From Natronospirales bacterium (lineage in GTDB: Bacteria; Pseudomonadota; Gammaproteobacteria; Natronospirales; REEB76), in the NCBI GenBank assembly GCA_021816765.1, contig JAKAXB010000002.1:124001-188000 (forward strand): 64,000 nucleotides of DNA, written 5' to 3'. This document shows positions 40,962-44,130 of the stretch, one piece after another. Positions within the stretch are counted from its first letter, which is position 1, and each line of letters starts with the position of its first letter. A program made the translations under genes and the position numbers. The notes below the pieces were generated by a model. It had not been told where the DNA came from and ran no database searches. It worked only from the letters and a program-made list of their open reading frames with translations.

Positions 40962-41288
40962 GGTTGTCTCCTTGCGGACAGGCCCTTCCGGCCTGTTTCC
41001 GCTAGCGGGATGCAGCGGCAGTTTCAATGCAGTATCAACGCCCGGGAAATGCAGAAATTGCATTTTCACATTTTGAGCTGGAAAAGTGTCACGCCGACCT
41101 TACACAGGCGCTCACCCGCTGCACGTTACACGCCGCGGGTATGCCGGTCAACGCGAGACTTTGTGAGAGACTGAGAGTTGACATCATCCGCAGTGGGGGC
41201 TAGATTGAAGCCATGACTTAGACTAAGTCTAACCAAGGTTGAGCGCCGCCCGGCGCATGATTCCGCTACGCACATTTGGAGGAAATTT
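40962..41288. promoter_or_regulatory. Divergent regulatory region between xseB and the rubrerythrin operon
   Basis: A 327-base gap with no gene. A strong sigma-70-like promoter reads toward the rubrerythrin gene: TTGACA at 41178-41183, a 17-base spacer and TAGATT at 41201-41206. The perfect palindrome TTAGACT-A-AGTCTAA (41218-41232) falls just past the predicted start site (about 41213). GGAGGAAA at 41279 is the ribosome site. The xseB side shows no clear promoter. Confidence 0.7.
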
Positions 41289-41711
41289 ATGAGCAAGCTT
41301 AAAGGCACCAAGACCGAGGAGAATCTCAAGTACGCCTTCTCGGGTGAGTCCCAGGCCAACCGCCGTTACCTGTACTTCGCCGCGAAGGCGGACGTGGAAG
41401 GTTACAACGACGTATCCGCCGTATTCCGCTCCACCGCGGAAGGCGAGACCGGGCATGCCCACGGCCATCTGGAGTACCTCGAAGCGGTGGGCGATCCGGC
41501 CACCGGTCTGCCCATCGGCCCGACCGCCAGCAACCTCAAGGCGGCCATCGCCGGCGAAACCCACGAGTACACGGATATGTATCCCGGCATGGCCAAGGTC
41601 GCCCGCGAGGAAGGCTTTACGGAAATCGCCGACTGGTTCGAGACTCTCGCCAAGGCGGAGCGTTCCCACGCCAACCGTTTCACCAAGGCGCTGGACGGCC
41701 TCGGCAAGTAA
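41289..41711 (+). CDS. rbr: Rubrerythrin-family protein (single-domain, no rubredoxin tail)
   Basis: A 140-residue ferritin-like diiron protein. Repeated Glu/His motifs include [53 protein letters not shown] and [15 protein letters not shown]. These provide the carboxylates and histidines of the diiron site. The C-terminal rubredoxin domain of classical rubrerythrins is missing, as in sulerythrin-type proteins; electrons must come from another protein. Rubrerythrins reduce hydrogen peroxide. It is first in a four-gene unit behind a strong promoter with a palindrome, which suggests peroxide- or iron-controlled expression. Confidence 0.95.
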
Positions 41712-41732
41712 AGCTCCCGAGGAAATGAAATG

Positions 41733-41755
41733 GCGGGGGCGCGCGGCGCCCCCGC
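41733..41755 (+). other. Strong GC hairpin between rubrerythrin and the Fe-S gene
   Basis: GCGGGGGCGC (41733-41742) and GCGCCCCCGC (41746-41755) form a perfect 10-bp stem with a 3-base loop. No T-run follows, so it is probably a transcript-stabilising or partial-termination structure that would give more rubrerythrin than downstream products. Confidence 0.6.
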
Positions 41756-41780
41756 ACATAATCCGCAGAAGGAAAGCAGC

Positions 41781-43127
41781 ATGGCAAACCGCGGTGCAGC
41801 GCGGGGCGAGGGCGGTCTTGAAGCCCCAACCCGCCATCCCATCCACTGGCAGAACCCGGACTTCGGCGACGAGGAATCCCTCTTCCAGGAGCTGCACAGG
41901 GTATTCGACATTTGTCACGGATGCCGCCGCTGCTTCAGCCTGTGCAACTCCTTTCCCACGCTCTTCGATGCCATCGACAATTCCAAAACCATGGAACTCG
42001 ATGCCGTGGATCGCAAGGTCTATTGGCAGGTGGTGGACCATTGCTACCTGTGCGACATGTGTTATATGACCAAATGTCCGTACGTGCCGCCGCATCCCTG
42101 GAACGTGGATTTCCCGCATTTGATGCTGCGCGCCAAGGCCCTCAAGTTCAAAAACCAGGGTGCCGGTTTCCGCGACAGGATACTTTCATCGCCTGACAAG
42201 CTCGGCAAGCTCGCCGGCATCCCGGTCGTGGTGCAGACCGTGAACGCGCTGAACCACAACGGTGTGGCCCGCAAACTCATGGACAAAACCCTCGGCATTC
42301 ATCCCGATGCGGTGGTTCCGGAATTTCACAGCGACAGCGCGCGCAAGCGTCTGAAGACCCACACACCGCTCGCGGTGCATGCGGAGCCCGCGGAGGGCAC
42401 GCGGGGCAAAGTGGCGATCTTCTTCACCTGCTACGGCAACCACAACCAGCCGGAACTGGCCGGGGATCTGCTGGCGGTGTTCGAGCACAACGGCATCCCG
42501 GTACGGCTGACCCCCCGGGAGCGCTGCTGCGGCATGCCCAAGCTGGAGCTGGGTGACCTGGAGAGCATCAGAAAATCCAAGGAAGAGAACATCCCCATAC
42601 TGGCAAAACTGGTGGACGAGGGATATGACATCGTCGCCCCCATCCCATCCTGTGTGCTCATGTTCAAGCAGGAATTGCCGCTCATGTTCCCGGATGATGA
42701 GCAGGTGAAAAAAGTTCGGGACAACATCTACGATCCGTTTGAATACCTGATGTTGCGCCACAAGGCGGGCAAGCTCAAGACGGAATTCAAGCAATCCCTG
42801 GGCAAAGTGTCCTACCACGTTCCCTGCCACCAGCGCGTGCAGAACATCGGCCTGAAAACCAGGGAGACACTGGAGCTGGTGCCGGATACGCAGGTGGAGG
42901 TCATCGAGCGCTGCTCCGGTCACAACGGCACCTACGCAGTGAAAAGCGAGTTCCACGCGATCTCCATGAAGATCGGCCAGCCGGTAATGGAGCGGGTGGC
43001 TGGCTCCGGTTGTAACCACTACACCAGCGACTGCCCCATGGCGGCGGAGCAGATCCAGAATGGCCTGCCGGACCGTCGCGAACCGGAATCACCCATGAGA
43101 TTGCTGAGAATGGCCTACGGTCTGTAA
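41781..43127 (+). CDS. GlpC/heterodisulfide-reductase-like iron-sulfur protein
   Basis: A 448-residue soluble protein. Two 4Fe-4S motifs lie near the N-terminus: [11 protein letters not shown] and [14 protein letters not shown]. Two CCG-type modules follow: [13 protein letters not shown] ... [12 protein letters not shown], and [13 protein letters not shown] ... [10 protein letters not shown], in which the second CC pair reads CS. This layout is that of GlpC and HdrD-type electron-transfer subunits. Next to a rubrerythrin lacking its rubredoxin domain, it is the best candidate reductant. The start at 41781 follows AGAAGGAAAG. No flavoprotein or glpAB genes are nearby, so the glycerol role is unlikely. 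Confidence 0.9.
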
Positions 43128-43198
43128 GGCCGCTACTTTATTCCTCGTCCCGGTAATGGGGATGGAAAAATAGGCAAAGTGCTTTACTCTGCGAAGTT

Positions 43199-43236: not shown

Positions 43237-43527
43237 ATGGCAAGCGCGGGCTATCACGAACCGATTGAGGAACTGTCCGACGAAGTCCGCGACTTTCACC
43301 GGGCGGTGGTGTCCCTGATGGAGGAACTGGAAGCGGTGGACTGGTACAACCAGCGGGTGTATGCCTGCAAGGACAGGGAACTGACCGCCATCCTGGCGCA
43401 TAACCGCGACGAGGAGATGGAGCACGCCTCCATGGTGCTGGAATGGATCCGCCGACACAGTCCGCGCTTTGATCATGAACTGAAGGAGTATCTCTTCAGC
43501 AAGGGTTCCATTACCGACCACGAATAG
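43237..43527 (+). CDS. Encapsulated-ferritin-like (EncFtn) protein
   Basis: A 96-residue protein, two helices in a ferritin-like half-bundle. The block VVSLMEELEAVDWYNQRV and ILAHNRDEEMEHASMVLEWI matches the Rhodospirillum rubrum encapsulated ferritin, from memory of that sequence. Glu30, Trp36, Tyr37, Glu60 and His63 line up with its ferroxidase residues (Glu32, Trp38, Tyr39, Glu62, His65). The chain stops at SKGSITDHE; the C-terminal encapsulin-targeting tail of R. rubrum EncFtn is absent, and no encapsulin gene is in the window. It should oxidise Fe(II) as a decamer-like ring but would not be delivered to a shell. It sits between an Fe-S protein and DUF3501. Confidence 0.85.
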   Translation: MASAGYHEPIEELSDEVRDFHRAVVSLMEELEAVDWYNQRVYACKDRELTAILAHNRDEEMEHASMVLEWIRRHSPRFDHELKEYLFSKGSITDHE

Positions 43528-43545: not shown

Positions 43546-44130
43546 ATGAAAAAGATCGAGTGCACGGATTTATTGAGTCTTGAGGAGTACGCGCAGAAGC
43601 GTGCCGCCTTCCGCGAGCAGATCATGCAGCACAAAAAAGCGCGCGCTCTGCCCATCGGCCCCAACGTGACGCTGCTGTTCGAGGACAATCTGACCATGCA
43701 GTACCAGATTCAGGAGATGCTGCGCGCCGAGCGTATTTTCGAGCCCGCCGGTATCCAGGAGGAACTGGACGCCTACAACCCGCTGATCCCGGACGGCAGC
43801 AACTGGAAGGCCACCATGCTTATCGAGTTCGAGGGCATCGCGGAGCGCCAGCAGGCACTTGCCCGCTTCATCGGCATCGAAGACAAGGTGTGGGTGCAGG
43901 TTGCAGGCCGGGACAAGGTGTACGCGGTTGCAGACGAGGATATGGAACGTGAGAACGCCGACAAGACTTCCTCGGTGCATTTCCTGCGCTTCGAGCTCAC
44001 GCCGCCGATGGTGCAGTCGCTCAAGGGCGGCGCCGCGCTCGGTTCCGGCGTGAATCACCCCAATTACGCGCACAAGACCGCGCCGGTACCGGACAGCCTG
44101 CGTGCCGCGCTGCTCGCCGATCTCGCCTGA
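43546..44130 (+). CDS. DUF3501 family protein
   Basis: A 194-residue soluble protein with the DUF3501 signature sequence: RALPIGPNVTLLFEDNLTMQ, then QIQEMLRAERIFEPAGIQEE and LIPDGSNWKATMLIEF. No catalytic motif is recognised and no function is known to me. In other proteobacteria DUF3501 genes lie beside rubrerythrin and GlpC-like Fe-S genes, as they do here, pointing to a shared oxidant or metal-related job. The start is 18 bp after the EncFtn-like gene. Confidence 0.88.
   Translation: MKKIECTDLLSLEEYAQKRAAFREQIMQHKKARALPIGPNVTLLFEDNLTMQYQIQEMLRAERIFEPAGIQEELDAYNPLIPDGSNWKATMLIEFEGIAERQQALARFIGIEDKVWVQVAGRDKVYAVADEDMERENADKTSSVHFLRFELTPPMVQSLKGGAALGSGVNHPNYAHKTAPVPDSLRAALLADLA

Follow-up and report, generated by a model that had tools for sequence, protein, structure and literature searches.

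The window, the 64,000-nucleotide stretch of DNA analysed here, encodes a 96-residue encapsulated-ferritin-like protein (EncFtn; 43237..43527, + strand) without a targeting tail, and its gene stands among those of a rubrerythrin cluster. We think it reasonably likely that this tail-less EncFtn is a free cytoplasmic di-iron ferroxidase that works with rubrerythrin in iron and peroxide defence. Tail-less proteins of this type were named s-FLP in a 2024 review, where they are defined by a length of about 95 residues, the lack of a long disordered C-terminus, and the lack of an apparent targeting peptide (PMC11202242); the window EncFtn, with 96 residues and no targeting motif, belongs to this class. 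As the class has already been published, the lack of a tail and a shell is not new in itself; the element that we did not find described in the literature is the setting, with EncFtn between the RFO and DUF3501 genes of a known aerobic-type rubrerythrin cluster.

The EncFtn open reading frame is intact, begins with ATG, and has the sequence GGAGGA 5' of its start. The protein scored above the curated cut-offs of both family profiles, Pfam EncFtn-like PF22277 (E = 3.4e-42; 142.6 bits versus a cut-off of 27) and NCBIfam TIGR04535 (131.2 bits versus 125). Its top solved relative was NE0167 of N. europaea (3K6C; E = 1.3e-40), followed by R. rubrum EncFtn (5DA5; E = 7.4e-33). The metal-site residues of the R. 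rubrum protein are E32, E62, H65, and Y39, with an entry site at E31/E34 (PMC5012862); by alignment these correspond to E30, E60, H63, and Y37 and to the pair E29/E32 of the window protein, which thus retains both the ferroxidase and the entry-site residues. The first-pass annotation had named E30, W36, Y37, E60, and H63 as ferroxidase residues, and the alignment confirmed the presence of all five; the choice of Trp36 holds for this protein but not family-wide, since NE0167 has Leu there. Among 105 tail-less sequences E29, E30, E32, W36, Y37, H55, E59, E60, and E62 were invariant, and position 63 was His in 104 and Tyr in the remaining one. Values of dN/dS against six relatives were approximately 0.08-0.12, and the gene is therefore under strong constraint. 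An AlphaFold single-chain model (pLDDT 85.1) predicted helices at residues 15-43, 47-74, and 76-86, that is, two antiparallel helices plus a short C-terminal helix, and the closest folds were 3K6C and 5DA5 (TM 0.82).

The genes around EncFtn lie on a single strand in the order RBR-RFO-EncFtn-DUF3501, with EncFtn third. RBR (41289..41711, +) is an aerobic-type rubrerythrin of 140 residues (PF02915, 2.2e-30) that has no rubredoxin domain and whose solved relatives are rubrerythrin 9ONM (4.7e-78) and sulerythrin (2.2e-52). RFO (41730..43127, +) is a GlpC-like Fe-S oxidoreductase (PF02754, 3.3e-12) for which the GlpC models remained below cut-off; in one compared genome, G360 (L186), RFO is split across two reading frames. 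The DUF3501 gene (43546..44130, +) encodes a protein of 194 residues (PF12007, 1.5e-72) with a solved homologue, 3FJV. The aerobic-type rubrerythrin system is characterised by a rubrerythrin that lacks the rubredoxin domain and is encoded together with RFO and DUF3501, as is the case here; the trio, RFO included, was described by Cardenas et al. 2016 (PMC5114695) and is also known as a set of mitochondria-targeted proteins in Andalucia (PMC7050145). The string 'encapsul' is absent from PMC5114695, and literature searches likewise gave no connection between the trio and EncFtn. When the fold of DUF3501 was compared with the PDB, the orphan 3FJV was the only convincing neighbour, and with that sole match the assignment of a function to DUF3501 from its fold was rejected. 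We also rejected a tie of EncFtn to the downstream topoisomerase-subunit gene, which is found beside clusters without EncFtn as well and reflects lineage gene order.

In the 31 rubrerythrin clusters compared, EncFtn occupied the RFO/DUF3501 interval in 13, followed DUF3501 in 2, and was absent in 16. The link with RFO, rubrerythrin, and DUF3501 raised in the first-pass annotation was thus borne out as a recurrent gene order. On the best tree of RFO and DUF3501 this state changed 6 times, with at least 4 changes forced by well supported branches; the RFO-EncFtn-DUF3501 order requires several gains or losses. Most members of the window's family have EncFtn in the cluster; it is absent from one well supported branch of three genomes of the same genus in which the cluster is otherwise intact, an absence best read as one loss. 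Co-occurrence of EncFtn and DUF3501 was modest (13/19 versus 13/37; p = 0.025). The rubrerythrin cluster was the commonest shared real neighbour set of the 80 nearest tail-less relatives, yet it accounted for only 8 of them, and the link is therefore recurrent but not general; the other 72 lay outside the cluster in varied neighbourhoods, which counts against our preferred explanation. Because same-genus genomes and most tail-less relatives lack the pairing, EncFtn is an optional part of the cluster.

The alternative that we rate highest is that EncFtn is a free ferroxidase functionally unrelated to the rubrerythrin cluster and shares its locus by chance or neutrally. It would accommodate both the varied neighbourhoods of most tail-less relatives and the same-genus clusters without EncFtn, but we regard it as unlikely, because no other real neighbour set was shared as often, because the position recurs over several changes on the tree with EncFtn only about 16-35 bp from RFO at five loci (L003, L029, L057, L061, and L135), and because in genome G362 (L137) a rubrerythrin-like gene stands directly 5' of a tail-less EncFtn with neither RFO nor DUF3501 beside it and no DUF3501 match in the genome, so that rubrerythrin and EncFtn can be paired where the remaining cluster genes are missing. 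In the window itself the gap before EncFtn is 109 bp and a weak terminator-like hairpin (43118-43132) follows RFO, so separate transcription of EncFtn is possible.

A second alternative, which takes up a suggestion of the first-pass annotation, is that EncFtn is an iron donor that loads the cofactors of RFO, rubrerythrin, or DUF3501 by direct transfer. That its neighbours are iron proteins or are co-encoded with them, and that DUF3501 is well conserved, would suit such a role; we nevertheless hold it to be quite improbable, given that DUF3501 has no fold neighbour besides 3FJV and that more than half of the clusters compared manage without EncFtn, which is thus not generally needed for maturation of the partners.

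A sigma-70-type promoter-like site, TTGACA-17-TAGATT (41178..41206, +), matches the consensus at 10 of 12 positions, and just 3' of its -10 element, overlapping the promoter region, is a predicted operator with a 7-1-7 palindrome (41218..41232, no strand assigned; TTAGACTNAGTCTAA / TTAGACTAAGTCTAA). It is the sole such site in the 2.58 Mb genome when up to one mismatch is allowed. The palindrome occurred upstream of RBR in most clusters of class-level relatives whether or not EncFtn was present, and is therefore a feature of the entire rubrerythrin cluster; it is missing at L003 of Sedimenticola selenatireducens, at L029, and at L061, although the clusters there hold EncFtn, and this counts against our preferred explanation. 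The exact palindrome was not found in a literature search. Sites of the Fur family typically have this 7-1-7 layout. In the window's genome Fur (L203) is accompanied by another Fur-family gene, L204, for which the best models were IrrA and Irr, both below cut-off (121.7 of 150 and 119.7 of 170). An Irr-like gene was present in 19 of the 22 genomes with the palindrome versus 2 of the 7 with the cluster only (Fisher p = 0.008, uncorrected for relatedness), a count that omits G103, which has a three-mismatch site, and G362, which is without the full cluster. In G372 the Irr-like gene (L197:4493-4927, - strand) lies directly after DUF3501 in convergent orientation; the operator sequence in that genome is TTAGAATAATTCTAA. 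We predict from these sequence comparisons that the palindrome is the site of an Irr/PerR-like Fur-family repressor. Two other candidate control sites were tried and rejected: a Fur box upstream of EncFtn at stand-alone loci showed no excess (mean 9.54 matches of 19 versus 9.48 in shuffles), and the rubrerythrin operator was found upstream of EncFtn in only 1 of the 80 nearest relatives, with three mismatches.

The C-terminus of the window EncFtn, ...LFSKGSITDHE, extends nine residues beyond the conserved LF and contains no GSL-type targeting peptide of the kind found in encapsulin cargo. All 105 tail-less sequences were 94-102 residues long, a uniformity that rules out a truncation artefact in the window, and none had a targeting-peptide-like motif beyond residue 80, whereas tailed EncFtn proteins do have one. 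His occurred within the last six residues in 96 of the 105, often as ...PIAHE; this recurrent terminal His hints that the tail-less proteins share a short, conserved C-terminus particular to them and are not merely truncated. The window's genome contains one copy of EncFtn. A search of the whole genome (2.58 Mb, 99.12% complete) with the Family 1 encapsulin profile PF04454 gave no match, while control genomes did give matches; the Family 2 profile PF19307 gave none, and its controls were likewise silent. Both earlier observations, that the chain stops at residue 96 without a docking tail and that no encapsulin gene lies in the window, therefore stood, and for Family 1 the second extended to the rest of the genome, where the first-pass annotation had proposed to look. 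Among the 50 genomes that encode tail-less relatives, 48 yielded no encapsulin (the completeness of these 50 is not given), and PF04454 was absent from 54 of the 56 genomes of a taxonomic set.

In the two exceptions among the 50 genomes, encapsulin adjoins a second, tailed EncFtn whose tail contains GSLGIGSLRG or LTLGSLKAG. Overall, each of the six encapsulin-adjacent EncFtn genes (L090, L091, L129, L132, L180, and L181) encodes a C-terminal targeting-like tail, and three encapsulin genomes (G332, G334, and G377) also hold a tail-less EncFtn at another site. The same pairing of encapsulin and tailed EncFtn was seen in G377 and G389 and also at L090 and L091. G377 has both kinds, a tailed EncFtn beside encapsulin on contig C5 and a tail-less one in an RBR-RFO-EncFtn-DUF3501 cluster on C18. 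On the EncFtn tree, otherwise poorly resolved, every tailed protein fell outside a large tail-less group (support 91). The review that named the s-FLP class states, with reference to Giessen and Silver 2017, that it was formerly put among the non-encapsulated proteins, and treats its encapsulation as an open question (PMC11202242); the presence and absence of tails and shells weigh against encapsulation of the class. That the window EncFtn is ordinary encapsulin cargo, with an undefined docking sequence in its short C-terminus and a shell that is elsewhere, of another family, or missed, draws on that open question, on a genome completeness short of 100%, and on a Family 2 search silent even in controls, but is very improbable given the absence of PF04454 from this genome and from 48 of 50 relatives' genomes, the tailed EncFtn that adjoins encapsulin in G332, G334, and G377 while the tail-less copy lies elsewhere, and the missing motif in every tail-less sequence. 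The free-standing EncFtn of the first-pass annotation is, by the same evidence, well supported.

In the arrangement that we favour, a free EncFtn working with rubrerythrin, rubrerythrin would remove H2O2 and EncFtn would oxidise and buffer Fe2+ that would otherwise fuel Fenton chemistry. The oxidant for EncFtn would be O2 or H2O2, a preference left open in PMC7762939. RFO would be the likeliest electron source for rubrerythrin, and might also re-reduce the di-iron site of EncFtn. The RBR, RFO, EncFtn, and DUF3501 genes may be co-transcribed; a putative Irr/PerR-like Fur-family protein would repress them at TTAGACTNAGTCTAA, and repression would lift as iron/haem or peroxide rises. A catalytic or buffering role fits better than storage, because a decamer of EncFtn on its own takes up no more than 10-15 Fe and precipitates result (PMC5012862). 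EncFtn has been described as requiring the encapsulin shell for iron handling because open rings cannot retain mineral (PMC5012862, PMC7762939), and a shell-less EncFtn is unlikely to be an iron store. Besides rubrerythrin, the other Ferritin-family match in the window's genome has a reading frame broken at several points, and EncFtn may therefore be the sole intact ferritin-type ferroxidase there; the broken frame (L198, approximately 1333-1900; G000:C11:46044) is Dps/bacterioferritin-like with frame changes and a stop, and is either a pseudogene or an assembly error.

More tentatively, and with somewhat more doubt than confidence, we suggest that the tail-less EncFtn proteins make up a separate and widespread branch that is independent of shells and serves not to store iron but to detoxify Fe2+ and peroxide catalytically, and that in this lineage EncFtn has become the fourth part of an aerobic rubrerythrin system with a dedicated Irr/PerR-like repressor and electrons from RFO. 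Many bacteria have an EncFtn with a fully conserved iron site and no known shell, and the cluster offers a direct test of the role of free EncFtn: whether it is co-expressed with rubrerythrin, how it responds to iron and peroxide, and whether RFO supplies it with electrons. The cluster also suggests a candidate regulator for a gene system that includes the unexplained DUF3501.

NE0167 is the known protein most like the window EncFtn, with about 72% identity, a length of 95-96 residues, the two-helix fold, and no targeting peptide; it differs in the Leu at the position of Trp36, and the window gene differs in lying inside a rubrerythrin-RFO-DUF3501 cluster. No function of NE0167 was reported in the literature examined. 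Its structure, 3K6C, was reported as a decamer (PMC11202242), and the window EncFtn probably assembles into a similar decameric ring. R. rubrum EncFtn (Rru_A0973, 5DA5) shares the ferroxidase and entry-site residues, the fold, and 62-63% identity over the aligned core, but it serves as encapsulin cargo and has a long targeting tail at its C-terminus, whereas the window EncFtn has neither a tail nor a Family 1 encapsulin. In alphaproteobacteria Irr represses bfr and rubrerythrin-like genes from a box at the start site (PMC3413700); the window cluster resembles the Irr-controlled bfr and mbfA or rubrerythrin-like genes in having a palindromic box near the start site and an Irr-like gene in the genome, and differs in that L204 scores below the curated Irr cut-offs. 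Finally, like the described aerobic-type rubrerythrin system (PMC5114695), the window cluster has RBR, RFO, and DUF3501 all on one strand; unlike that system, it has a fourth gene, EncFtn, between RFO and DUF3501.
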